Made by a program: the position numbers and the translations under genes. From Clostridia bacterium (GTDB lineage: Bacteria > Bacillota_A > Clostridia > Oscillospirales > Acutalibacteraceae), in NCBI GenBank assembly GCA_017390825.1, contig JAFPAK010000105.1, positions 1-12,411 of the forward strand: 12,411 nucleotides of DNA, written 5' to 3'. A model generated the notes under the pieces. The model was not told the origin of the DNA and made no database searches. It saw only the letters and a list, made by a program, of their open reading frames with translations. Numbering within the stretch: the stretch's first letter is position 1; each line of letters starts with the position of its first letter. Of this stretch, positions 1 to 12,411 are shown piece by piece.

Positions 1-46
1 ATCACCTCATTGATTTTATTATAGTTTAATAGATAATATTTTTCAA
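1..46 (-). promoter_or_regulatory. Promoter and ribosome binding site for a minus-strand gene off the left edge
   Basis: Read on the minus strand, positions 46-41 give TTGAAA and 23-18 give TATAAT, separated by exactly 17 bases. This is a near-consensus housekeeping sigma promoter pointing left, with a start point expected near position 11. Just beyond it, positions 8-1 read GAGGTGAT on the minus strand, an excellent match to the anti-Shine-Dalgarno of 16S rRNA. A start codon should therefore lie a few bases outside the window. The leader would be very short, and the region is AT-rich, so chance is not excluded. Confidence 0.5.
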
Positions 47-68
47 GTTATATTCCTCCTAAAGTCGG

Positions 69-221
69 AGTGATATTATTGCCGTGCGGCAATAGTGTTA
101 TTGAAAACTTGCAGTTTCAGTGTTATTTTATTCGCCCAAAAACTGCCGAAGGCAATATCACTTGGACTTTAGTCCAAATATCACTGCGCAGCAATATCAC
201 TCGCCAAAGGCGAATAAAACT
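69..221. repeat. Cluster of small palindromes separated by AATATCACT/AGTGATATT nonamers
   Basis: Seven copies of a nonamer punctuate this stretch: AGTGATATT at 69-77, AGTGTTATT at 94-102 and 119-127, then AATATCACT at 154-162, 177-185 and 193-201, and a diverged AATAAAACT at 213-221. The left three are in the opposite orientation to the right four. The intervals are themselves palindromic: 78-93 (stem ATTGCC, loop GTGC), 103-118 (imperfect, GAAAACT/AGTTTC), 144-154 (TGCC/GGCA), 162-177 (TTGGAC/GTCCAA), 185-193 (TGC/GCA) and 201-213 (TCGCC/GGCGA). In addition TTTTATTCGCC near 126-136 is the reverse complement of part of 209-219, so the two halves can pair over a longer range. There is no open frame of interest. 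It resembles a REP- or MITE-like non-coding element, but I do not know a named family; function unknown. Confidence 0.7.
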
Positions 222-249
222 GGCGTTGTATCCTTACGGGTACAACGCC
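222..249 (-). terminator. Hairpin terminator downstream of the CBS-domain gene
   Basis: A 12-base-pair stem (GGCGTTGTATCC paired with GGGTACAACGCC, including one G-T wobble) closes a TTAC loop. On the minus strand it follows the stop codon at 265 by about 15 bases and is followed by the T-rich AGTTTTATT, consistent with an intrinsic terminator for the CBS-domain gene. On the plus strand it is also followed by a T run at 261-266, so it may work in both directions. Its immediate adjacency to the palindrome cluster suggests it could be part of that element. Confidence 0.55.
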
Positions 250-264
250 TTTGCAGTCTGTTTT

Positions 265-681
265 TTATTTTACCTGTTTAGCTAAATAATCTATTATCTT
301 TTTTCTTGTGACGATGCCGATGAAGGAGCCTGAATCATCTGTTACCGGAATAAAATTCTGATTTGTTGCACGTTCCAGAAGTTCATCTGCAGTTGCGGTG
401 ATCCTTACAGCAGGATTTTTGTCTTGCTTCACGATATCCGAAATGGCGATATGCTCAACAGATTTAATATCTATCTTACGGAGGTCGCCGCTTTCACCTT
501 CAACAAGAAACCAAAGGAAATCCCCCTCGCTGATAGTGCCGCAGTATTTACCGTCACGATTGATAACGGGTACTGCGCTGTATTTATGGTAATTCATTTT
601 TTCTAGTGCCTGCCGTATTGAAAAATCATTGTATAGAAAAGCAAGCTCTGCTTTTGGTGTTAATAAAAACGCTATATTCAT
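265..681 (-). CDS. Small two-CBS-domain protein
   Basis: The 138-residue product consists of little more than two CBS motifs. The first (about residues 1-60) contains the typical segments YSAVPVIN and YCGTISEGDFLW; the second (about 75-138) has the matching FIPVTDDSGSFIGIVTRKKI ending just before the C terminus. Such paired CBS modules usually bind adenosine nucleotides and act as stand-alone sensors or regulatory subunits; the ligand and partner here cannot be told from sequence. The frame can be extended to a TTG at 699, but that TTG overlaps the GGAG ribosome binding site (697-694 on the minus strand). I chose the ATG at 681, 12 bases downstream of GGAG. The promoter at 742-714 gives a start point near 707, which also favours the shorter form. 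It is a single gene, divergent from the envelope operon, and ends at a hairpin. Confidence 0.85.
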   Translation of the reverse strand: MNIAFLLTPKAELAFLYNDFSIRQALEKMNYHKYSAVPVINRDGKYCGTISEGDFLWFLVEGESGDLRKIDIKSVEHIAISDIVKQDKNPAVRITATADELLERATNQNFIPVTDDSGSFIGIVTRKKIIDYLAKQVK

Positions 682-713
682 TTTATTATGTATCTCCAAT
701 CTATTTTAATTTT

Positions 714-742
714 ATTTTAGCACGAATTATGAAGCTTTTCAA
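714..742 (-). promoter_or_regulatory. Promoter of the CBS-domain gene
   Basis: On the minus strand TTGAAA (742-737) and TAAAAT (719-714) are separated by 17 bases, giving a start point near 707 and a leader of about 25 bases to the ATG at 681 with GGAG in between. The spacing and both hexamers fit a housekeeping sigma factor. Confidence 0.65.
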
Positions 743-806
743 TCTTCAGGCAAAATATTTACAAAAACATTACCGATTGTTAAAAACGAATGCACATAAA
801 AAAGAC

Positions 807-835
807 TTTACATAATGGGCAACATATGGTATAAT
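807..835 (+). promoter_or_regulatory. Promoter of the teichoic-acid-like operon
   Basis: TTTACA (807-812) and a perfect TATAAT (830-835) lie 17 bases apart, with transcription expected to begin around 841-842. The -10 box overlaps the ATG at 834 that would give the longest reading frame, so that ATG cannot be the translation start from this promoter. A small dyad, GACCA-AAA-TGGTC (836-848), is centred on the predicted start point and could be a 5' hairpin or a regulator site; this is only a suggestion. Confidence 0.75.
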
Positions 836-911
836 GACCAAAATGGTCGCTTTGCGTCTAATTGCCAAAAATGCGTCCGTTAATAAGATGAATAAAGGGT
901 GTGTTAGATCG

Positions 912-1709
912 GTGAAAAAACTTATCGCTCATTGCAAGCAGTACAGATTTTTGCTTGGTGAGCTTGTAAAGAAAGGAATTACACTTCGCTACCGTCGAAG
1001 CTTTTTAGGCGTGTTCTGGACTATGCTTGAGCCGCTGCTTACAATGATCGTACTTACATTTATTTTCGGACCGTTGCTCGGATATTCTTCGGATAAGACT
1101 TATCCCGTTTATATCCTTGCGGGCAGACTTATATATACAATGTTTTCGCAATCTACAAAAGAATGTACCCGTGCTATTCGCTCAAATGCTGCGATGATAA
1201 AAAAGGTATATGTTCCGAAATATCTGTTTCCGCTGTCGCATGTTATATTTAACTATATAATTTTTGCGATCTCACTTATAGTGCTTGCAATAGTATCACT
1301 CATACTCGGTGTTATTCCTACCTGGTGGTTATTTACGGCGATAGTTCCGCTGATAAATGTATTCTTATTATCACTTGCAGTCGGTATGCTGCTTGCAACT
1401 ATCGGTGTGTTCTTCCGTGACATGGAGTATTTATGGAATGTTGCGCTCACGCTTATAATGTATATGAGTGCTATTTTCTATAATATCAACGAAGGCAAAT
1501 ATTCTTCAATTGCTATATTAAAGCTTTTGAAATTTAATCCGCTTTACTGTATTATTGAGAATTTCCGAGGCGCAATATTCAGCAATACCGTAGCCTGTCC
1601 GTTCTCTTGGGAACTTGCAGTTTATACAGCGGTGTTCAGCCTTGTGCTTCTTGCATTCTCTGCGTGGCTGTTCCATAAAAAGCAGGATGAATTTATCATG
1701 CATATTTAA
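912..1709 (+). CDS. ABC-2 type polysaccharide/teichoic acid export permease (TagG/Wzm-like)
   Basis: This is the membrane subunit of an ABC exporter that moves a lipid-linked polymer across the cytoplasmic membrane. The N terminus carries the family hallmark LVKKGITLRYRRSFLGVFW, a basic amphipathic segment just before the first membrane helix. About six hydrophobic segments follow, and the protein ends in a short basic cytosolic tail. The open frame reaches up to an ATG at 834, but that codon lies in the -10 box of the promoter. I prefer GTG at 912, preceded by AAAGGG (895-900) with 11 bases between, giving 265 residues, the usual length for the family. An ATG at 888 is the alternative and has a poorer ribosome binding site. 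The ATPase partner follows after 14 bases. The substrate is inferred from the glycerophosphotransferase downstream. Confidence 0.9.
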   Translation: MKKLIAHCKQYRFLLGELVKKGITLRYRRSFLGVFWTMLEPLLTMIVLTFIFGPLLGYSSDKTYPVYILAGRLIYTMFSQSTKECTRAIRSNAAMIKKVYVPKYLFPLSHVIFNYIIFAISLIVLAIVSLILGVIPTWWLFTAIVPLINVFLLSLAVGMLLATIGVFFRDMEYLWNVALTLIMYMSAIFYNINEGKYSSIAILKLLKFNPLYCIIENFRGAIFSNTVACPFSWELAVYTAVFSLVLLAFSAWLFHKKQDEFIMHI

Positions 1710-1723
1710 CGGAGGTGGAAATT

Positions 1724-2461
1724 TTGGCTAACGAAGTTATCAGTCTTGACAATGTAAGTGTAAAGTTTAATCTTTCCTCCGAAAAGCTGGACAGCTTTAA
1801 AGAGTTTTTTATAAAACTTATAAAGCGTGATGTTCATTATGATGAGTTCTGGGCATTGCAGAATATTTCGTTTTCGGTTGAAAAAGGAGACAGACTCGGT
1901 ATTCTCGGTCTTAACGGTGCCGGTAAGTCAACACTTTTGAAGGTTATTTCAGGTGTATTTAAGCCTACCGAGGGAACAGTAAAAAGAAAAGGTCTCATTG
2001 CACCGCTTATCGAGTTGGGAGCAGGTTTTGATATGCAATACACCGGAAGAGAGAATATCTATCTTTACGGGTCTGTGCTTGGATTTTCAAAGAAATTCCT
2101 TGATGAGCGATATGACGAGATAGTTGCTTTTTCTGAACTCGAAAAGTTTATGGATGTGCCGCTTAAAAACTATTCATCGGGTATGAAGTCTCGTCTTGGA
2201 TTTGCAATAGCTACCGCAGTTGAGCCGGATATACTTATTCTCGACGAAATACTGTCGGTTGGTGATGCAAAGTTCAGAAAAAAAAGTGAACAAAAAGTTA
2301 TGAGTATGATGGATAAAGGGGTAACTGTGCTGTTTGTATCACATAATATATCACAGGTACAGCGTATCTGCAATAAAGCCATCCTTCTTGAACACGGAAA
2401 AATAATTGCAAAGGGAACTACCGAAGAGGTGTGCCCGATTTATGAGGAAAAAACAAAGTAA
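1724..2461 (+). CDS. ABC transporter ATP-binding protein, TagH/Wzt-like
   Basis: This is the 245-residue ATPase that powers the permease encoded just upstream. Counting from the TTG start, it has Walker A GLNGAGKST at 62-70, the signature region YSSGMKSRLGFAIA at 150-163, Walker B ILILDE at 170-175, D-loop SVGD at 178-181 and the switch histidine in SH at 206-207. The segments YTGRENIYL and SVGDAKF are typical of the polysaccharide/teichoic acid exporter ATPases. It lacks both the carbohydrate-recognition extension of long Wzt proteins and the C-terminal extension of Bacillus TagH. The reading frame extends to a GTG at 1715, but this is inside the ribosome binding site GGAGGTGG (1711-1718). 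TTG at 1724 sits 8 bases beyond GGAGG and is the better start. Confidence 0.93.
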   Translation: MANEVISLDNVSVKFNLSSEKLDSFKEFFIKLIKRDVHYDEFWALQNISFSVEKGDRLGILGLNGAGKSTLLKVISGVFKPTEGTVKRKGLIAPLIELGAGFDMQYTGRENIYLYGSVLGFSKKFLDERYDEIVAFSELEKFMDVPLKNYSSGMKSRLGFAIATAVEPDILILDEILSVGDAKFRKKSEQKVMSMMDKGVTVLFVSHNISQVQRICNKAILLEHGKIIAKGTTEEVCPIYEEKTK

Positions 2462-2486
2462 AGCACTGTATTTTAGGAGAGGAAAA

Positions 2487-3236
2487 ATGTCAAAGTTGAA
2501 TTTAATTGTCGATGCAACGGGGAAGCGCGACGCACTTGAAAGACTGCTTATGAGCATTAAGCGTCAAACCGTTTCGGGGATAATTGTTACACTTGTTGCA
2601 GCCGAAGAAGAGACTGTTGCACATCTTAAAGAAAAGTATGCTTTTGATGTAACAGTTACAAAGCACGGATTTGCAGACGGTATCAATATGACGATACAAA
2701 AGCTTTCGTCACCGTTCTTTATGCCGGTAGCTTCAAATCAGCTTTTTGCGGTTGACTTTTACGAGAATGCACTGCCGTATCTTGATGAGTGTGACGGTGT
2801 TATGTTCAACATTGCAAAGAAGCGGGCAAACGGCAAATTTGCGAAAATATACAAGGGTTCAGGTGCGGCTGTGTCGGAAATGCTTATGCGTCGTCCTTGT
2901 ATAAACTGCTGTGTGTTTAAAACAACGGTAGTAAAAGATAATGATATCAAGCTTAAATCAGTTACCATTGCAAATCAGGCTGCATTTCTGGAAAAGTACT
3001 TTGAGTGCTGTGAAACTGCGGAATATGTGCCGGATACAAGAATATATATTGACAACATTTCAAAAAGTGCAAAGCCTTCATTGATCGGTGCGGTAGGAAA
3101 GAAGAATTCTGCTGCTATTATTAAGGAATCAGTGTTGGATACTGCGTACCCGTTTCTCGGAACAGAGGCATACCGCAAACTTTGCAGAGCGAAGAGCTTT
3201 TTTGTACGCGGTGTAAAACACGTTTTAAAACGATAG
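2487..3236 (+). CDS. GT-A-fold glycosyltransferase-like protein with degenerate active site
   Basis: The 249-residue protein follows the layout of a family 2 glycosyltransferase but with key motifs eroded. Residues 3-30 (LNLIVDATGKRDALERLLMS, then IKRQT) match the opening strand and first helix of GT2 enzymes. The nucleotide-binding NDGSTD that should follow is replaced by VAAEEE, and the DXD metal site expected at the end of the next strand is replaced by VASNQ (81-85), although the surrounding FFMP and FAVDFYENALPYLDECDGVMFN look like the family. There is no membrane segment or signal peptide. ATG 2487 has AGGAGAGG at 2475-2482; longer in-frame starts lie inside the ATPase gene. Position between the exporter and the GT2-glycerophosphotransferase suggests a non-catalytic partner or scaffold, or an enzyme with an altered mechanism. 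The fold is an inference from pattern similarity. Confidence 0.65.
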   Translation: MSKLNLIVDATGKRDALERLLMSIKRQTVSGIIVTLVAAEEETVAHLKEKYAFDVTVTKHGFADGINMTIQKLSSPFFMPVASNQLFAVDFYENALPYLDECDGVMFNIAKKRANGKFAKIYKGSGAAVSEMLMRRPCINCCVFKTTVVKDNDIKLKSVTIANQAAFLEKYFECCETAEYVPDTRIYIDNISKSAKPSLIGAVGKKNSAAIIKESVLDTAYPFLGTEAYRKLCRAKSFFVRGVKHVLKR

Positions 3237-3294
3237 GAATAAGTTTTTATATTTACTGTGCTGAAACTAAATAAATGAGGATTGAATAACAGCA

Positions 3295-5952
3295 ATGGAT
3301 TATAATTATAATTACAGAGTTTCAATTATAGTGCCGGTTTACAATGTTGAAGACTATCTTGCCGACTGTCTCGATTCGCTGCTGAATCAGACTATGCCCA
3401 AAGAGGATATGGAGATAATCGTTGTAAATGACGGCTCTACCGATTCAAGTTATGAAATTTGTAAGGAATATGCTAAAAAGCACGATTGCATAAAGCTTTA
3501 TACTAAAGAAAACGAGGGCCTTTCAGCTACCCGTAATTATGCTATGAAGCGTGCAACCGGTAAGTATATGATGTATATCGACAGCGACGATATGTTTACT
3601 GAGGAAACAGTTAAAAGTGTTGTTGATTTCTTTGATACTGTTTATGATAAGGTCGATCTTGTAACATATTTTGAGCAGCCTTATACAACTGAGGGCAAGC
3701 TTCCGCCACATTTCAGATATAGATATTATCTTCGCAAGACCGGTGTTTATGACCTTGAAAAGAAACCGTTTATCGTGCAGACCCGTGTTAATGTCTGCGT
3801 TAAAAATCTTTATGATCAAAACGAGCTTTTTGATACGACTCCCGGTTTCAAGCAGGAGGATCAGGAATATAACAACCGTATTGTAAAAGATAAATTGATG
3901 ATCGGTTACTGTTCAAAGGGCTGCTATCTGTATAATAAATCAAACGAGGGCAGTATTGTTGCAACTACGTTCCATGCATACTATCTGTTTGAAAAGAGTA
4001 TGGAATATTTTGAGCGTCTTTTCGGTCAGTATGAGGACAAGGTTCCGAGATATTTTCAATTTATGTTCGTTAATGACCTTCGATGGAAACTGAACGCAAA
4101 AGTTCTTTATCCGTTCCATTTTGAAGGTGCGAAGTTTGATGAAGCGGTAAACAGAATCAAGGCACTGCTTGCAAGGGTTGATGTCGGCATAATCGCAGGG
4201 GATCCTGTAATGAGCAACTTCCACAAGCAGTATTGGTTAAGTATGAAGCCAAATTCAAATGTCACCGTTTATACTGACGGAAAGTCTACCGGCGTTTTGC
4301 ATGACGGCAGATTTATCTATTCGTGTGTCAATATTGAAATAAAGCTCGTGCGTATTCAGGTAATGGATGATAACAAGCTGCTTGTGCGTGCGTATGTCCG
4401 TTCGCCTATACTAAACCATCTGCCTGAACTACCAGAGGTGCTCGTTTGCGAAAACGGCGATATGAACAATCTTGTTAAACCTAAGACCTACCTTTCAAAA
4501 TACGGTTATGAAAATACCAATGTCCGCACAAATGATTTTATAGCAGCGGAATATGTCTGCGATCCGGACAAGGTGTTCTCATTCCAGCATTTTGTATTGC
4601 TTGATGGATACTATATTCCTGCAAGATATACATTTAACGATACTGCTGTGTTCAGTTACTCGAAGGGTGTTTTTAAGTATGTCCGTGCAAATACGAAGAT
4701 AACCTTTAAAAAAGGTAAATTCCTGCTTTGCAAGCTTACTGATGAACAAGTAGATGCTTTTGAGATCGAGCAGACTAAAAATATCTTGACTCTTGAGCCG
4801 GAGGCAAGAGAGCTGCGACTTAAAGCTATTGAATACAGAAAAAATCACCGTGTGTGGCTTTATAGCGATTTATATACCGTTAAAAAGGATAACGGATATT
4901 ATCAGTTTATAAATGACTTCAAATATAAAGACGGTGTTGAGCGTTACTATGTCTATACCCGCGAGAAAGAGGAGATAATAGATCTGTTCACTGAAGAACA
5001 ACAGAAGTATCTTGTCGAGTTCGGTAGCGAGCAGCACAAATTACTCTATCTTTCAAGCGAGCTTGTATTGAGCGGCTTCTACGGCAGAACCCCTATTTCT
5101 CCGTGGCCGAGAGAAGCGCAAGAGCATAATTATTATGATATTGAGCATTATAAGGTGATCTATTTGCAGCACGGAGTTTTGCACGCATCACTTTATGTGC
5201 AGAACTCGGTTGAGAATGCAAGAAGCGATAAGATCGTAATTTCATCTCCTTTTGAAAAGCGTAATTATACCAATAACTATAATTACGATCCCGACAATCT
5301 TGTTGAAACAGGTATGGCAAGATATGACCATATCGACCGTACAAAGAAGGCGAAGAACAAGATACTATTTGCACCGTCATGGCGTAATTATCTTGCTGCA
5401 AATGTTACGGCTTCAAGATGGAGCGTTATGCGTAATAAGATACTTGCATCAGATTATTATAAGAATATTCAGGCGTTTATTGAGTCGGAAAAGCTTCATG
5501 AGCTGCTTGTAAAGTATGATATGTATCTTGAACTGAAGCTGCATCCAATCATTTCATCTGCAACAGATGTATTTGATATCAAGTCAGACCGCATCTCGTA
5601 CGCTGCAAGCGATGTTGATATTGCTGACTATGCAGTATTTATGACCGACTTTTCTTCGTTTGTATTCGATTATGCCTGCCTTGTTCGCCCGATAATGTAT
5701 TTTGTACCGGATTATCCGCAATTCAAGTCGGGTATGGGTCATTACCGTGATCTCGATCTGCCGTTTGAAGAGGCATTCGGACCTCTTTCACTTAATGCAG
5801 AGGATACGGTAAGCAATCTTCAGAAAATACTCGAAAACAACTGTGAGCCGGAGCCTGTTTACAAGGAACGTATGGCTAACTTCTACTATCCGCTTGATAA
5901 CTGTGCTGACAGATTGTATGAGTATATTACAACTTCAGGATTTTTAAAATAA
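3295..5952 (+). CDS. Bifunctional GT2 glycosyltransferase / CDP-glycerol glycerophosphotransferase (TagF-like)
   Basis: This 885-residue fusion probably both builds and glycosylates a glycerophosphate polymer on the cytoplasmic side of the membrane. The N-terminal GT2 domain (about 8-300) has VSIIVPVYN (9-17), NDGSTD (45-50), EGLSATRN (74-81), the metal-binding DSDD (96-99) and a likely catalytic acidic pair in QEDQ (187-190). A strand-rich linker (about 320-510) follows. The C-terminal GT-B domain (about 518-880) fits the CDP-glycerol glycerophosphotransferase family: DNGYYQF (532-538), YLQHG (623-627), LFAPSWR (691-697), LKLHP (747-751), MTDFSSFVFDYA (783-794) and RP (798-799). The histidines of QHG and HP match residues known to be essential in TagF-type enzymes. 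ATG 3295 is the first usable start because TGA in frame at 3283 closes the frame; its ribosome binding site (GAGG, 3277-3280) is rather distant. It lies 58 bases after the preceding gene with no terminator between. Confidence 0.92.
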   Translation: MDYNYNYRVSIIVPVYNVEDYLADCLDSLLNQTMPKEDMEIIVVNDGSTDSSYEICKEYAKKHDCIKLYTKENEGLSATRNYAMKRATGKYMMYIDSDDMFTEETVKSVVDFFDTVYDKVDLVTYFEQPYTTEGKLPPHFRYRYYLRKTGVYDLEKKPFIVQTRVNVCVKNLYDQNELFDTTPGFKQEDQEYNNRIVKDKLMIGYCSKGCYLYNKSNEGSIVATTFHAYYLFEKSMEYFERLFGQYEDKVPRYFQFMFVNDLRWKLNAKVLYPFHFEGAKFDEAVNRIKALLARVDVGIIAGDPVMSNFHKQYWLSMKPNSNVTVYTDGKSTGVLHDGRFIYSCVNIEIKLVRIQVMDDNKLLVRAYVRSPILNHLPELPEVLVCENGDMNNLVKPKTYLSKYGYENTNVRTNDFIAAEYVCDPDKVFSFQHFVLLDGYYIPARYTFNDTAVFSYSKGVFKYVRANTKITFKKGKFLLCKLTDEQVDAFEIEQTKNILTLEPEARELRLKAIEYRKNHRVWLYSDLYTVKKDNGYYQFINDFKYKDGVERYYVYTREKEEIIDLFTEEQQKYLVEFGSEQHKLLYLSSELVLSGFYGRTPISPWPREAQEHNYYDIEHYKVIYLQHGVLHASLYVQNSVENARSDKIVISSPFEKRNYTNNYNYDPDNLVETGMARYDHIDRTKKAKNKILFAPSWRNYLAANVTASRWSVMRNKILASDYYKNIQAFIESEKLHELLVKYDMYLELKLHPIISSATDVFDIKSDRISYAASDVDIADYAVFMTDFSSFVFDYACLVRPIMYFVPDYPQFKSGMGHYRDLDLPFEEAFGPLSLNAEDTVSNLQKILENNCEPEPVYKERMANFYYPLDNCADRLYEYITTSGFLK

Positions 5953-5966
5953 ATGAGGTAAAACTT

Positions 5967-7088
5967 TTGAATTTTACAGCTCCGTGTCTGTTCGGCGTAG
6001 AAGGACTGCTGGCAGACGAACTTAAAAGGATGGGGGCAGAAAATGTGGTTGCCGAAAACGGAAGGGTTTCGTTTTCGGGTGACGACAGTATTCTTGCCCG
6101 CGCCAATATAAATTCACGATTTGCAGAGCGCATACTCATTGAGGTTGGCAGTTTTACTGCTTACAGCTTTACAGAGCTTTTTGACAATGTAAGCCGTCTG
6201 CCCTTTGAAAGGTATATAGATAAATACGATGCTTTTCCCGTTAAGGGCTGGTCGCTGAACTCAAAGCTTCATTCAATTCCCGATTGCCAAAGTATTATAA
6301 AGAAGTCTATCGTATCACGCTTGCAGAAAAAGTATGGTATCACATGGTTTGAAGAAACCGGCAGCAAGGTACAGATACAGTTTTCTATTATGAAGGATAA
6401 GGTATCGATACTTATTGATACCTCCGGCGAGGGGTTGCATAAGCGCGGCTACCGCAGAGATGCTAACGAAGCGCCTATAAAGGAAACGCTTGCTGCTGCA
6501 ATGGCAAGCGTTGCTAGAATATATCCCGATACAACGCTGTATGATCCGTTTTGTGGTTCGGGCACCATTCTTATTGAGGCGGCTATGATAGCAAATAACA
6601 TAGCTCCGGGTCTGAAACGTTATTTTTCGGCTGAAAGGTTTTCTTTTGTTGATAAAAATGCCTTTGCCCGAGAAAGAGAAAGAGCACTTGAGAGCATAAA
6701 AAGAACTTCTGATTTTCATGCATTCGGCAGCGATATTGACGATAATTCATTGGAAATATGCAAAAACAATTGCCGACTTGCAGGTGTAGACAGCTGCGTA
6801 ACACTCACTAACCGCAACGCTGCGGATTTTGAGTGCAGCAGCGAGAGAGGACTTGTTATCACCAATCCGCCGTATGGAGAACGCCTGCTTGATATTGATG
6901 AAGCACGCCGCCTTTATAAGATAATCGGCAAACGGTTTATTAAGCAAAGAGGTTGGAAGTATTATATCATTTCACCCGATGAGGACTTTGAAAATCATTT
7001 CGGCAGACCTGCCGATAAGCGCAGAAAGCTTTACAACGGTAATATCAAATGCAATTTATATATGTATTTCAGGAGTGATAAAGCGTGA
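5967..7088 (+). CDS. THUMP-domain class I SAM-dependent 23S rRNA guanine methyltransferase (RlmL/YpsC family)
   Basis: The 373-residue enzyme belongs to the family that makes N2-methylguanosine in 23S rRNA. An N-terminal ferredoxin-like part and THUMP RNA-binding domain (about 1-155) lead into GLHKRGYRRDANEAPIKETL (156-175), the characteristic junction, then the Rossmann methyltransferase with DPFCGSGT (193-200) for SAM binding, GSDID (254-258) for the second SAM-contact acidic residue, and the catalytic NPPYGERL (300-307). It has only one methyltransferase domain, as in Bacillus YpsC, and not the double-domain form of E. coli RlmL. The start is TTG 5967, 8 bases after GAGG (5955-5958) and 14 bases after the preceding stop. 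Its stop overlaps the start of the lipid kinase by 4 bases (GTGA), so the two are translationally coupled. Exact target base is not visible. Confidence 0.9.
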   Translation: MNFTAPCLFGVEGLLADELKRMGAENVVAENGRVSFSGDDSILARANINSRFAERILIEVGSFTAYSFTELFDNVSRLPFERYIDKYDAFPVKGWSLNSKLHSIPDCQSIIKKSIVSRLQKKYGITWFEETGSKVQIQFSIMKDKVSILIDTSGEGLHKRGYRRDANEAPIKETLAAAMASVARIYPDTTLYDPFCGSGTILIEAAMIANNIAPGLKRYFSAERFSFVDKNAFARERERALESIKRTSDFHAFGSDIDDNSLEICKNNCRLAGVDSCVTLTNRNAADFECSSERGLVITNPPYGERLLDIDEARRLYKIIGKRFIKQRGWKYYIISPDEDFENHFGRPADKRRKLYNGNIKCNLYMYFRSDKA

Positions 7089-8053
7089 CACATTATTTTA
7101 TCATCAACCCCGCGGCCGGAAAGCACAGAGCATTGGAATTGGAAGATAAAATAAGAGCGGTAATGGTATCTATTGGCGAACCATATGATATTATTTTCAC
7201 TGAGTATGCACATCACGCTATTGAAATAGTTAAAAGTATTGCAAGCAAAAATAAAGAGTGTCGTTTCTATGCCTGTGGCGGAGACGGCACGCTTTTTGAT
7301 GTTGTAAACGGCGCATGTGAATATGAAAATGCAGCAGTCGGTGTTATACCGTACGGTTCAGGTAACGATTTTACACGCAGCTTTGAATACCGTGAGCGGT
7401 TTCTTGATATAAGAGCTCAGGTAAAGGGAAGTACGGTTCCGCTTGATCTTATCAGATTTGAGGATATGTATAGCTGTAATGTCTGCTCGCTCGGTATGGA
7501 TGCTGAGGTCGTAAACCATAAATCCCGCCGTAAATTGCTGTCAAGAATAAGCGGACCGCTTGCATATAATATATCGGTGTTTACTGCCTTTGTCTTCAAC
7601 CTAAAAAACAAATTCAGAGTATGTGCAGACGGCGAGGAGTTTTTTAGCGGTGACTGCGCCCTTTGCTCCATTGCCAACGGCAAGTATTACGGAGGTGGAT
7701 TCAAGGCTGCACCCGATGCTGTTATGAACGACGGTATTATTGATCTTTCGGTAATTGAATCGATATCACATCTGGATGTTTTAAAACTTTTACCAATATA
7801 TAAAAAGGGCTTACATACGAATCTCCCGATCTGCCACATCAAACAGTGCCGTAAGGTATCAATTGAGTGCGAAAAGGAAATGTCCGTTAATCTCGACGGC
7901 GAGTTGTTCCGTAGAAAAAAAGCAGAGTTTGAAATCATACCGGGTAAGTTGAAGTTTATTTTGCCCGCTGTTGCAGTAACCGAAAAAGACGGCAAACGTG
8001 CAAAATCATCTGCAAATGTTAAGCGTGCAGCGGCTTTGAATGAACAAAACTGA
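7085..8053 (+). CDS. Diacylglycerol kinase-family lipid kinase (DagK/DgkB/YegS-like)
   Basis: The 322-residue cytosolic enzyme belongs to the family that phosphorylates diacylglycerol or related lipids using ATP. It shows NPAAGK (8-13), the nucleotide-binding GGDGT (65-69), GSGNDF (91-96) and the C-terminal DGELF (271-275), with the two-domain length typical of the family. The last 25 or so residues after KFILPA are charged and look like a non-conserved tail. GTG at 7085 is well placed after AGGAG (7071-7075) and overlaps the methyltransferase stop. In Gram-positive bacteria DgkB returns diacylglycerol released during lipoteichoic acid synthesis to the phospholipid pool, so a location at the end of a glycerophosphate polymer operon is fitting, although the actual substrate is not shown by sequence. 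No GC-rich terminator follows; only an AT-rich stretch precedes the groES promoter. Confidence 0.9.
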   Translation: MTHYFIINPAAGKHRALELEDKIRAVMVSIGEPYDIIFTEYAHHAIEIVKSIASKNKECRFYACGGDGTLFDVVNGACEYENAAVGVIPYGSGNDFTRSFEYRERFLDIRAQVKGSTVPLDLIRFEDMYSCNVCSLGMDAEVVNHKSRRKLLSRISGPLAYNISVFTAFVFNLKNKFRVCADGEEFFSGDCALCSIANGKYYGGGFKAAPDAVMNDGIIDLSVIESISHLDVLKLLPIYKKGLHTNLPICHIKQCRKVSIECEKEMSVNLDGELFRRKKAEFEIIPGKLKFILPAVAVTEKDGKRAKSSANVKRAAALNEQN

Positions 8054-8094
8054 ATTTAAAATTTTAATTTTTTATTAATTTGTCAATAATATAC

Positions 8095-8122
8095 TTGATT
8101 TTTTGAAAAAAGTGACTACAAT
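8095..8122 (+). promoter_or_regulatory. groESL promoter
   Basis: TTGATT (8095-8100) and TACAAT (8117-8122) are separated by 16 bases, placing the start point near 8129, inside the CIRCE element. This fits a housekeeping-sigma promoter silenced by a repressor bound at +1. It also separates the chaperone operon from the preceding lipid kinase gene. Confidence 0.7.
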
Positions 8123-8127
8123 AGTAT

Positions 8128-8154
8128 TTAGCACTCAGGACCAAAGAGTGCCAA
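8128..8154 (+). promoter_or_regulatory. CIRCE operator (HrcA binding site)
   Basis: The sequence TTAGCACTC-N9-GAGTGCCAA matches the CIRCE consensus TTAGCACTC-N9-GAGTGCTAA with a single mismatch in the right arm and the exact 9-base spacer. It overlaps the predicted groESL start point. In Bacillota the HrcA repressor binds CIRCE and releases it on heat stress; hrcA itself is not in this window. Confidence 0.95.
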
Positions 8155-8187
8155 TTTAACATTTTACACTTTTAGGAGGCATTAGAT

Positions 8188-8472
8188 ATGAACATTAAAC
8201 CACTTGCTGACCGTGTAGTATTAAAATCGGTCGAAGCAGAAGCAACCACAACCAGCGGTATTATACTTACCGGTAACGCAAAGGAAAAGCCGCAGATGTC
8301 CGAAGTTGTGGCAGTAGGTCCCGGCAAGCTTGTTGACGGCACAGTAAAAGCTGTTGAAGTTAAGGCGGGCGATAAGGTGCTTGTAAGCAAATACGCTGGC
8401 ACAGAGGTAAAGATCGACGAGATTGAATACACTATCGTTTCAGAAGATGACATTCTTGCTATTGTTGAATAA
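8188..8472 (+). CDS. groES: Co-chaperonin GroES (Hsp10)
   Basis: The 94-residue protein is the 10-kDa lid that caps the GroEL cage in the cytosol. The sequence is colinear with the family throughout: MNIKPLADRVVLK at the N terminus, the mobile loop with TTSGIILTGNAKEKPQ (about 21-36) that docks on GroEL, VVAVGPGK, and the C-terminal VSKYAGTEVKIDEIEYTIV with DDILAIVE at the end. Full family length. A strong AGGAGG (8174-8179) precedes the ATG by 8 bases. It is the first gene of the CIRCE-controlled operon and lies 16 bases before groEL. Confidence 0.98.
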   Translation: MNIKPLADRVVLKSVEAEATTTSGIILTGNAKEKPQMSEVVAVGPGKLVDGTVKAVEVKAGDKVLVSKYAGTEVKIDEIEYTIVSEDDILAIVE

Positions 8473-8482
8473 TTGGAGGTAA

Positions 8483-10126
<1,644 letters not shown>

Positions 10127-10146
10127 TTTTTATAATCCCAAAGATC

Positions 10147-10187
10147 AAAAGAACGAAAATTTTTCAAAATTTTCGTTCTTTTTTTAT
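10147..10187 (+). terminator. Intrinsic terminator of groESL
   Basis: A long perfect stem (AAAAGAACGAAAATTT, 10147-10162, paired with its reverse complement at 10167-10182) with a TTCA loop runs directly into a T-rich tract (TTCTTTTTTTATTT). It lies 20 bases after the groEL stop codon. Confidence 0.92.
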
Positions 10188-10229
10188 TTATAAAAAAATT
10201 TTTAAAAATTTTTAATTTTTCTGCCGGTT

Positions 10230-10257
10230 TTTAGATATTTGAGTTGTTGTATATAAT
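10230..10257 (+). promoter_or_regulatory. Putative promoter for the disrupted dockerin-type gene
   Basis: A perfect TATAAT (10252-10257) has a weak -35 match, TTTAGA (10230-10235), at 16 bases. The predicted start near 10264 gives a leader of about 105 bases before the ATG at 10371. The sequence around it is very AT-rich, so the -35 assignment is uncertain. Confidence 0.45.
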
Positions 10258-10291
10258 AGATAGTGAAAACTAATTAATTTTTTTAATAAAT

Positions 10292-10318
10292 GGGGTGGTT
10301 TTTATGAGAATATTATAA
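10292..10318 (+). other. Four-codon minicistron in the leader (MRIL-stop)
   Basis: GGGGTGG (10292-10298) stands 5 bases before ATG AGA ATA TTA TAA (10304-10318), so a ribosome could start here and stop after four residues. It is too short to be a protein gene. It may be a leader peptide, a decayed start of a lost signal-peptide gene, or chance in an AT-rich leader. The rest of 10190-10370 holds only the putative promoter and A/T tracts. Confidence 0.25.
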
Positions 10319-10370
10319 TTTTTCTATTTTTATAAGAATAACAAATACTAAAATAAAGGAGGAAATTTTC

Positions 10371-11115
10371 ATGAAAAAACAGAAAATAATATTTAAAGTA
10401 ATCGCATTAACTTTATCGTTCGCTATGGTTTTTCAGTATTCGCCGTATCATTTTCTGCGAATGCCATAACCGACTGGGAAAGTAAGATAACAGATCAACT
10501 TGCCGGGGTTATTGAAAGTGCCTCCCCAGACAAGCTGATACTTGTTGCTATCTGGTACAGCGATATTAATTATGACGAGGTAAATAAGGAAGTAGAAAAT
10601 AAGACCGGTCTCACCGCCGAAAGCATTGATACAGACCTTGCAATGCCTTCAGAGGAGCTTTTGAATAAGATCGGAACCTTGTCGGACTCAACGTCGCTAA
10701 CCGAGGCAGAACTTTCATCAATACAGCAGGAAGTACAGCAAGGTATGAAAGCGTATCTTGCAAAGACCGAAGCTAAAAGAGAATATGAAAGAGAATTGAC
10801 AGATCAGTTCATTTTATCAAAGCGCAGTATCGCAAAAGAAAAGTATATTGAAAAAGGCAACACGATTAAAAACTCTTTGAAGCTTGCAGATGCAGATATT
10901 AAGTTTCAAAGTCAATATGCTCCTATGATAATTACCGAAATGACGGTATCTGAAATTCAAGCTACTGCAAAGAAAGCGTATGTTGAAGAGATATATTATT
11001 ACGAAGACATAACTGCAACTGATTGTAGTGAATCTGACGAGGAAACCAGGACGGTTCAATTAATGTAAAAGATACATTGGTTGTACAGCAATATATTTCA
11101 AATTATGCAAATTAA
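10371..11115 (+). pseudogene. Disrupted gene for an exported protein with a single dockerin-like repeat (two frame breaks)
   Basis: ATG 10371 follows AAAGGAGG (10356-10363 region) and begins a signal peptide (KKQKIIFKVIALTLSFAMVF), but the frame stops at 10469 after 32 residues. Shifting by -1 at the T5 run (10429-10433) restores a proper signal peptide ending SVFAVSFSANA and an open frame of about 190 residues, rich in charged helices, up to SESDE. A second -1 shift near 11039-11043 is needed to continue into GNQDGSINVKDTLVVQQYIS followed by NYAN and stop at 11115. That last part is one dockerin type I-like Ca-binding repeat. Both breaks look like one-base losses in short homopolymers (T6 to T5, G3 to G2). 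Repaired, the product would have 248 residues. The middle domain (contains KLILVAIWYSDINYDEV and APMIITEMTVSEIQ) is not one I can name. Assembly error or programmed frameshifting are alternatives to decay. Confidence 0.7.
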
Positions 11116-11126
11116 GAATAAATTTA

Positions 11127-11155
11127 TTGACTTTGTATAAATATTATATTATATT
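11127..11155 (+). promoter_or_regulatory. Promoter of the LRR/dockerin protein gene
   Basis: TTGACT (11127-11132) and TATATT (11150-11155) are separated by 17 bases, giving a start near 11162, though this leaves a very short leader because AAAGGAGG begins at 11165. The element lies directly after the stop of the disrupted gene, so the two are probably separate transcription units. Confidence 0.55.
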
Positions 11156-11179
11156 AAAAATAACAAAGGAGGAATTTTT

Positions 11180-12411
11180 ATGAAAAAATTATTAGCTATT
11201 ATATTGACTCTTGTTTTGTTAATCAGTAGTGCTAGTATTTCTGCTTCGGCTTTGCCTGCTAATTTGAATGGATATTTTGATAACGGGCTGGCTTATGACC
11301 ACAGTGACCTTTTTACATATGATATTCGATTACCGTTCGGTGCTTACTTTTTTAACACATATTACAGATTGCCTACAGATACACAGAGACTTATAGATGC
11401 TCTTTACATATTCCCTAGCGACAATGAAGGCAGACTAATGGATTTTGATTATGAAAATCCCGATGATAACACATCCTTATATCTGGAGTTTATGTCGTTT
11501 TTTAACAAGCCTAATGTAATTATATTTAATGGAATCACCTATATCGGCGATGGATTTTTTGAGTATTATACCAAGACAAATCGTATTTATATTCCCAACT
11601 CTGTGACACAAATAAGTGATACTGCATTCAATTCAGATAATGATATAACGATTGTTGCAAGTAAAGATAGCTACGCAATTGAATACGCCATTGAAAAAGA
11701 CATGGATTATGTTATTGTTGACGAAAGCAATATTAAAGCTATGACAAAAAGTGAAATTGAAAGCTTTTTTAGATTTGACACATACAATAAGTCTGTAACT
11801 GAATTGGTGCGCGAGGAAGGAGTCTTTTATGACGAAGAATCCGGGTTTGTGTGCAAGCCGCTTGATGATAATACCGTTTCAGTGTTAGCATATTATTTAT
11901 ATAATCCAAAAACAACGTCACTTACTCCGATTGAGTCAAATAAAGAGCTTGTTATTCCTGAAAGCATTGCAGGATATACTGTTTCGCGTGTTGAGCCGTA
12001 TTTCGGTGCAAATGATACATTTTTCTGTCAACTTGATCCTTATCTTGAAGCGTGCTATCTTGCTGATTACAAGAATATTAGTAAGGTGACTTTCCCAAGC
12101 ACCTTGACTGAATTAGGCTTAAAGAACTGTGCGATTCCGGAAATAGTTGTTCCTAAAAACATTACAAGTCTTGGCGTTTTTAATGGAAACATAAATAAGA
12201 TAACCTTGACAAACGATGTTAAAACGCTTTACGTTGAACAAACAACTCCGATAAAATTTACAGTTATGAATGCGGAGTTGAATGAGAGTGCATCATTATC
12301 TTTCTATACAACGGTTTACGGTCTTGAAAATTCGTTTGTTCACAAGCTTGCAAGAGAATGTTTCTGCAATTTCGAAAGTGTAGGTATATTTGGTGATGTA
12401 AATCAGGACGG
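11180..12411 (+). CDS. Exported BspA-like leucine-rich repeat (LRR_5) protein with C-terminal dockerin, 3' end beyond window
   Basis: The frame stays open for 410 codons to the window edge. ATG 11180 follows AAAGGAGG (11165-11172) by 7 bases. Residues 1-24 form a signal peptide with a basic start, a leucine-rich core and an ASA cleavage site before LPANLN. A region of unknown fold follows (about 25-110). Residues about 113-181 match the LRR_5/BspA pattern: ITYIGDGFF, then IYIPNSVTQISDTAF, then ASKDSYAIEYAIEKDMDYVIVDE, which is the usual end of a repeat block. A second diverged set runs from about 250 (ELVIPESIAGYTV) to 400, including VTFPSTLTELGL and IVVPKNITSLGVF. The last seven residues, GDVNQDG (405-411), are the opening Ca-binding loop of a type I dockerin. 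It is likely a secreted or cellulosome-type surface protein; binding target unknown. Confidence 0.88.
   Translation, partial: MKKLLAIILTLVLLISSASISASALPANLNGYFDNGLAYDHSDLFTYDIRLPFGAYFFNTYYRLPTDTQRLIDALYIFPSDNEGRLMDFDYENPDDNTSLYLEFMSFFNKPNVIIFNGITYIGDGFFEYYTKTNRIYIPNSVTQISDTAFNSDNDITIVASKDSYAIEYAIEKDMDYVIVDESNIKAMTKSEIESFFRFDTYNKSVTELVREEGVFYDEESGFVCKPLDDNTVSVLAYYLYNPKTTSLTPIESNKELVIPESIAGYTVSRVEPYFGANDTFFCQLDPYLEACYLADYKNISKVTFPSTLTELGLKNCAIPEIVVPKNITSLGVFNGNINKITLTNDVKTLYVEQTTPIKFTVMNAELNESASLSFYTTVYGLENSFVHKLARECFCNFESVGIFGDVNQD

Follow-up and report, generated by a model that had tools for sequence, protein, structure and literature searches.

The window, by which the whole analysed stretch of 12,411 nucleotides from a Clostridia bacterium (contig JAFPAK010000105.1, positions 1 to 12,411) is meant, carries at its left end a block of short hairpins downstream of a CBS-domain gene. 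Read on the minus strand, the order of the parts is T hairpin, S/s, a1, a2 and a3, S', the inverted b1, b2 and b3, a promoter and a Shine-Dalgarno sequence. Farther into the window (834-5952), an ABC transporter pair is followed by a glycosyltransferase/CDP-glycerol glycerophosphotransferase protein, an arrangement that resembles a cell-wall polymer export cluster. The features of the block are as follows.

253-266, minus strand: A-tract and stem half AAAAAACAGACTGC, which overlaps the stop codon of the CBS-domain gene and extends beyond it; proposed from its sequence as the 5' half of a native terminator split by the element
222-249, minus strand: T hairpin GGCGTTGTACCCGTAAGGATACAACGCC, an element-borne GC hairpin beside a T-rich linker, identical in L253, L116 and L108
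202-221, minus strand: linker AGTTTTATT and hairpin S/s (CGCC-TTT-GGCG), S being 209-219
150-222, minus strand: match to Rfam Gut-1 (RF01706), corresponding to arm A, full length (1-77), 51.0 bits for a gathering score of 50
145-201, minus strand: arm A, with linkers at 193-201, 177-185 and 154-162, exact AGTGATATT on the minus strand
186-192, 163-176 and 145-153, minus strand: arm A hairpins a1, a2 and a3
126-136, minus strand: S' GGCGAATAAAA, an 11-bp perfect complement of S (209-219)
46-127, minus strand: arm B, inverted, with linkers at 119-127, 94-102, 69-77 and 46-54
103-118, 78-93 and 55-68, minus strand: arm B hairpins b1, b2 and b3
18-46, minus strand: promoter-like TTGAAA-17-TATAAT directly after arm B (11 of 12 matches), in the same place in L253 and L252
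1-8, minus strand: Shine-Dalgarno-like GAGGTGAT, from the BLAST alignment with L253

The observation of hairpins alternating with a repeated nonamer was confirmed by nonamer counts against shuffles, by folding of the minus strand and by aligned relatives. With one mismatch allowed, the nonamer AATATCACT/AGTGATATT gave 7 matches within 46-201 and 14 in the whole window, against a mean of 4.95 and a maximum of 12 in 200 whole-window shuffles. A diverged eighth nonamer, AATAAAACT, was found at 213-221. The preliminary description had placed the block at 69-249; the block is real, but these boundaries are too narrow and the true extent is about 1-266. Its list of nonamers had overlooked the leftmost one, AGTTATATT (46-54), together with the adjoining hairpin (55-68, two mismatches). 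The switch in nonamer orientation that it reported near 140 was located between 127 and 154. The terminator-like hairpin with which it ended the block (222-249) is present, but was not called by a simple terminator scan.

Folding of the minus strand of 40-260 gave z = -5.3 with DNA parameters and z = -6.3 with RNA parameters, and none of 200 shuffles folded as well. By pairing with S, S' closes arm A, in competition with the local S/s hairpin; the long-range 11-bp pair (126-136/209-219) was formed in the RNA fold, and did not appear as such in the DNA minimum-energy fold. A total of 44 entries were collected; two of these, L165 and L186, represent a single element, which is truncated in one of them. 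The alignment of 23 elements comprised the oriented entries with enough linkers and a length of 140-185 bp, plus PF05635 loci. The predicted pair cells were kept in 92% of cases, compared with 34-41% when the partners were slid. S/S' cells were paired in 251 of 253 cases, and S/s pairs were kept in 89 of 92 cells. The unusual claim that the stems vary while the spacers are conserved was also borne out, the majority-base fraction being 0.94 for linkers and 0.70 for stems; the former value is inflated, because nearly all 23 elements were detected via their linkers (up to 2 mismatches). Linkers vary between element families and repeat within each element. All minus linkers stood ahead of all plus linkers in 41 of the 44 entries, the other three having one stray linker and none being reversed. 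One genome, over 361 kb of its sequence, held nine detected elements, all with this order. By eye, the polarity of the arms appeared reversed in certain other linker families, L254 being an example.

Among 71 distinct inserts there were 27 triloops, 18 tetraloops, 21 others and 5 lacking a 2-bp stem. On the AATATCACT strand, 20 of the 27 triloops were GNA and none TNC, while 12 of the 18 tetraloops were GNNA; several hairpins consist of just GC-GNA-GC. DNA minihairpins with a GNA or GNNA loop and two or more G-C pairs are described as extraordinarily stable, GCGAAGC melting at 78 C (PMC4686876). This stability suggests, and is suggestive only, that the arrays fold as single-stranded DNA; computed folding energies failed to distinguish DNA from RNA where the hairpins have only 2 bp. 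Some of these loops could be favoured in RNA as well, and GNRA exceeded GNYA by 14 to 5. When all linker families were pooled (140 loops), 53 were GNA, 12 TNC, 19 GNNA, 4 TNNC and 52 other. The TNC loops were confined to the families GCTAAA (5), CATACA (4) and TATCAT (3), whose strand may have been named wrongly.

As a sequence, the block is not undescribed, a possibility raised at the outset, since one of its arms is the known Rfam family Gut-1, matched over the full model at one bit above the gathering score. PMC2864571 includes Gut-1 among noncoding RNAs, with human gut sequences as its only known source. In several genomes the Gut-1 matches occurred as convergent pairs beside terminators, so that Gut-1 represents one arm of a two-armed element. 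A sample of 300 genomes from one carrier's family yielded RF01706 in 54, with matches over the cut-off in 37; a control search gave matches below the cut-off in E. coli. The search of relatives for nonamer-palindrome-nonamer, proposed at the outset, succeeded in 70 of 394 genomes sampled from the order, many with multiple copies, and the reversed-pattern control was 0 throughout the matches listed for the same sample. Eight chosen high-copy genomes held 15 to 33 Gut-1 matches each, where two matches can be one element. Within the single genome G085, many sites carry copies that are 81-96% identical.

A subfamily of G085 (L067-L075) is about 330 bp long, with a GC hairpin at each end and a further hairpin in the middle; by eye it lies between terminator-like stem halves and looks recently active. 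When the flanks of G085 elements were searched in 20 genomes including G085, the matches listed outside G085 were all shorter than 300 bp. Supposed further copies in G663 (query 454-560) were rejected as another repeat, which includes ATCAACGGTAGCGGGAGG and was matched in 11 of 11 stretches of one genome (L217-L227). At L019, four AATTTCAC motifs on one strand within 19 kb form a possible array of another linker type. A literature search, which excluded most subscription journals, returned among the matches listed no paper joining Gut-1, PF05635 and terminators.

These data bear on whether Gut-1 is a free-standing sRNA, or forms a structured 3' UTR of the gene upstream, and is maintained for a function as RNA. 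Its Rfam type is Gene; sRNA, and the family was built as RNA and listed as noncoding RNA (PMC2864571). The covarying stems, the strong RNA fold with its long-range stem and the GNRA-type tetraloops would agree with such a role. Nevertheless this explanation is considered unlikely, because the inverted arms place the same linker on opposite strands, the closely similar copies of G085 occupy many sites of one genome, and split terminators and a linked PF05635 gene accompany the arrays, as described below. In addition, 2-bp GC-GNA-GC hairpins are suited to DNA (PMC4686876).

Several copies were found to continue past arm B into a gene of Pfam PF05635 (23S_rRNA_IVP; solved relative 2rld). The element is thus not purely non-coding, given that its complete form carries this gene. 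The closest copy found, L253, was identical at 231 of 268 aligned positions (86%), and the alignment spans the T hairpin, both arms, the promoter and the Shine-Dalgarno sequence. In L253, this same GAGGTGAT is followed within a few bases by the start of the PF05635 gene. The gene lies within the element in L253, L163/L250 and L252. As the window stops at the Shine-Dalgarno-like sequence, the gene of the window copy is predicted only; its start codon would be expected within about 10 bp beyond base 1, with GCAGTCTGTTTTTT farther on.

PF05635 was present in 20 of 20 element-rich genomes and in 8 of 20 other genomes (p = 4.5e-5), the latter not being an element-free set, since G340, G330 and G350 among them carry related arrays (L253, L256 and L266). 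The family gave 75 places, of which 70 were examined and the gene was refound in 69. At least 5 hairpins within 500 bp upstream were observed for 42 of the 61 PF05635 genes with enough upstream DNA, compared with 32 of 600 random windows, which are mostly coding DNA. Hairpins were more numerous upstream than downstream at 42 of 57 loci, the reverse being true at 8. A same-strand tRNA gene within 700 bp upstream was found for 35 of 62 genes. Counts of at least 5 copies of a 6-mer linker were reached upstream in 47 of 68 cases, downstream in 15 of 65 and in 73 of 400 random windows; this measure is weak alone, because downstream sides and random windows also reach 5 copies. The array is absent at some PF05635 genes (e.g. 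L237-L239). The search for PF05635 in Bacilli gave 4 of 149, none of them over the cut-off. PF05635 proteins are not known to have a catalytic activity. By eye, short tandem repeats (AATTGCAAATTGC and others), inverted across the two sides, flank PF05635 in L239, L240, L241 and L245, and such repeats were seen on one side in L260; these loci are possibly a simpler relative of the same design.

Linker type was compared with protein phylogeny for the 34 PF05635 proteins with one clear linker. The tree required 12 changes among 12 linker types, the minimum being 11 and the shuffled mean 25.5, and none of 200 shuffles was as low. One genome can carry several linker types. The agreement fits a PF05635 protein that reads its own linker, and plain co-inheritance alone would produce it as well. 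It would also be expected if the array were a regulatory leader or operator, the protein binding the nonamers in order to control its own promoter and the rest being ordinary context; the array indeed lies just upstream of the promoter and gene. This alternative is judged improbable, more so than an RNA function: most copies have no PF05635 gene nearby, Gut-1 matches outnumber PF05635 genes where both were counted (33 against 6 in G085, 20 against 5 in G194), and terminator halves enclose the array together with the gene and another ORF. Self-regulation and mobility could coexist.

The relation between copies with and without the gene was evaluated with L252 as reference. Nine of ten gene-less copies hold blocks from both sides of the PF05635 gene, the second block beginning at or shortly after the stop codon in L252; the tenth, L126, has the first block only. 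The blocks are spaced by roughly 20-160 bp in gene-less copies and by about 395 bp where the gene is present. Within the 1.6-3.1 kb that each locus spans, a PF05635 gene was found at 5 of 37 loci selected by Gut-1 and at 3 of 30 selected by pattern. Judged from sequence, the family looks like a minority of complete copies with many internal-deletion derivatives, as in MITE-like elements, whose dispersed copies are internal deletions of an autonomous element. No consistent target-site duplication of fixed length was seen by eye. The window copy looks like the complete type.

The flanks of the elements point to intrinsic terminators as the insertion sites. An A-tract and half a stem lie outside the T hairpin, and the opposite end has a T-tract with the complementary stem half. 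A split-terminator score of at least 11 was reached by 11 of 20 matched flank pairs and by 18 of 380 mismatched pairs (p = 4e-9). This test covers 20 of 21 rows; an earlier version covering 19 of 21 rows gave 9 of 19 against 11 of 342. A partner half at score 11 was absent in 9 of 20 T-class copies, and one of the 11 scoring matches, being pure A/T, is probably due to chance. The halves differ from copy to copy, and are therefore more likely native terminators than ends of the element. In L126 and L165 the right side holds nearly a whole hairpin together with a direct repeat of the left (5') half (about 15 and 9 bp, respectively), so these are not simple splits; the repeats may record the insertion reaction. 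Terminator halves occupy the position equivalent to 253-266 in L253, L163/L250, L121 and L191, and the 3' half matching 253-266 would lie beyond the window. In copies of the tRNA class, the terminator ahead of the array is complete.

The content of the 11 inserts varied. Six were 326-419 bp long, five of them without a frame of 70 codons and one with a 73-codon frame. Three (1,234, 1,339 and 1,707 bp, with scores of 17, 17 and 12) enclose PF05635 and another ORF. In L253 this second ORF encodes an unknown protein of 147 aa, in L163/L250 a methyltransferase, and in L252 a regulator of the AraC type that carries a Cass2 domain. The L133 insert (808 bp) contains a 133-codon frame and no PF05635. 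GNAT acetyltransferases (L249, L267 and L268), a NUDIX protein (L171) and kinase-like proteins (L129 and L243) lie beside arrays, where they may or may not be enclosed; the L129 halves score 10.

For one element, seven orthologues of the neighbouring gene were compared. Judged by eye, four of them are closed by an ordinary hairpin terminator that lacks the element. Among the other three, one has no element, one stretch was too short and G468 carries an element of the same kind. For the window copy, a search for an empty site through orthologues of the CBS-domain gene reached 60% identity at best, and none of 29 loci held more than one exact AATATCACT.

Movement by a Y1 (HUH) transposase, as a REP/BIME or an IS200/IS605-derived element, was also considered. 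The inverted hairpins with a conserved foot and their intergenic position would suit it, and Y1 genes occur in 9 of 20 element-rich genomes. However, no Y1 (TnpA_REP) gene was found in the remaining 11 of these draft genomes, and the stems vary in the present arrays whereas those of REP are conserved. With Y1 present in 4 of 20 other genomes (p = 0.18), the proposed link to a REP-type nuclease was not supported, and Y1/RAYT (PF01797) was rejected as a general partner. No transposase was recognised by eye in the ORF lists between the distant arms of L100 and L101. Of the explanations weighed here, this is regarded as the least probable.

The reading preferred here, with a probability of roughly three in four, is that the block forms the structured leading end of a small mobile element residing in intrinsic terminators. 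The two-armed anatomy, the covarying stems, the family, the PF05635 partner and the sites at terminators and tRNA terminators can be read directly from the sequence comparisons. Mobility is deduced from the dispersed similar copies (as within G085) and from sites that lack the element. The proposal of a mobile non-coding element, or a target for a nonamer-reading protein, was close, except that the element is not purely non-coding; mobility and reading are retained as deductions. Given the terminator sites and the linked PF05635 gene, the best reading of Gut-1 is as the array of a mobile element that targets terminators and encodes an S23 protein, and not as a free-standing sRNA.

The complete element would consist of the T hairpin, arm A (Gut-1), inverted arm B, a promoter and a PF05635 (S23/IVP) gene for a four-helix-bundle protein, some copies adding a short hairpin module and another ORF. 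In the proposed mechanism, the hairpins would fold while the DNA is single-stranded and would display the nonamers in register, where the PF05635 protein would bind them; a solved relative is pentameric (PMC4990558). The element in its single-stranded state would join the loop of a terminator hairpin, with strand joining possibly performed by a host enzyme, and the T hairpin with its T-rich linker would replace the broken terminator.

In a broader and more tentative interpretation, to which we give slightly less than an even chance, these elements would form a previously undescribed class of mobile cassettes, in which single passenger ORFs are moved into terminator loops by an S23/IVP protein that reads a lineage-specific oligonucleotide between single-stranded DNA minihairpins. 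Gut-1 and the ORF-bearing rRNA intervening sequences would then be two faces of this class. Two orphans would thereby explain each other: Gut-1, to which no function has been assigned, and the S23/IVP proteins, described in PMC4990558 as having an unknown role. The interpretation offers a concrete target (terminator loops) and a candidate recognition code (the linker changes with the protein), and a possible way for small genes to spread among gut Clostridia without landing inside genes.

Several known systems share part of this design. REP/BIME sequences have conserved stems and consist of inverted hairpins with a conserved foot, intergenic and in many copies. The present arrays resemble REP/BIME/REPIN in their inverted hairpins, conserved foot, intergenic location and copy number, and differ from these elements and their RAYT in that stems vary, linkers are conserved and Y1 is unlinked. 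Integron gene cassettes are composed of an attC site and a single ORF. Like them, the present element couples single small ORFs to a folded site whose structure is conserved while its sequence varies, and one ORF matches Cass2, an integron-associated family; unlike integron cassettes, the present element carries PF05635 inside and its copies are dispersed, not arrayed. A fold relative of the S23 family is bAvd, an accessory protein of diversity-generating retroelements; unlike bAvd systems, no reverse transcriptase was found among the three enclosed ORFs annotated, two of which had a Pfam match. With the RF01706 model, the arrays share hairpins joined by GUGAAAU/GUGAUAU linkers; that model describes one arm, typed as sRNA, whereas an inverted pair is found here at terminators, ahead of a promoter and PF05635 in relatives. 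The rRNA intervening sequence is, according to PMC4990558, a selfish element of small size that occupies a helix of a structured RNA; the S23 protein that it encodes, a four-helix bundle, has no known function, and heptamer repeats precede the ORF. Set beside it by description, the present element likewise encodes an S23 (PF05635) protein in a small element within a helix. In contrast to the intervening sequences, which lie in rRNA helices, the window copy is downstream of a CBS-domain gene and not inside an rRNA gene, and the family occupies terminators of protein-coding and tRNA genes and has hairpin arrays, its own promoter and, in some copies, another ORF.
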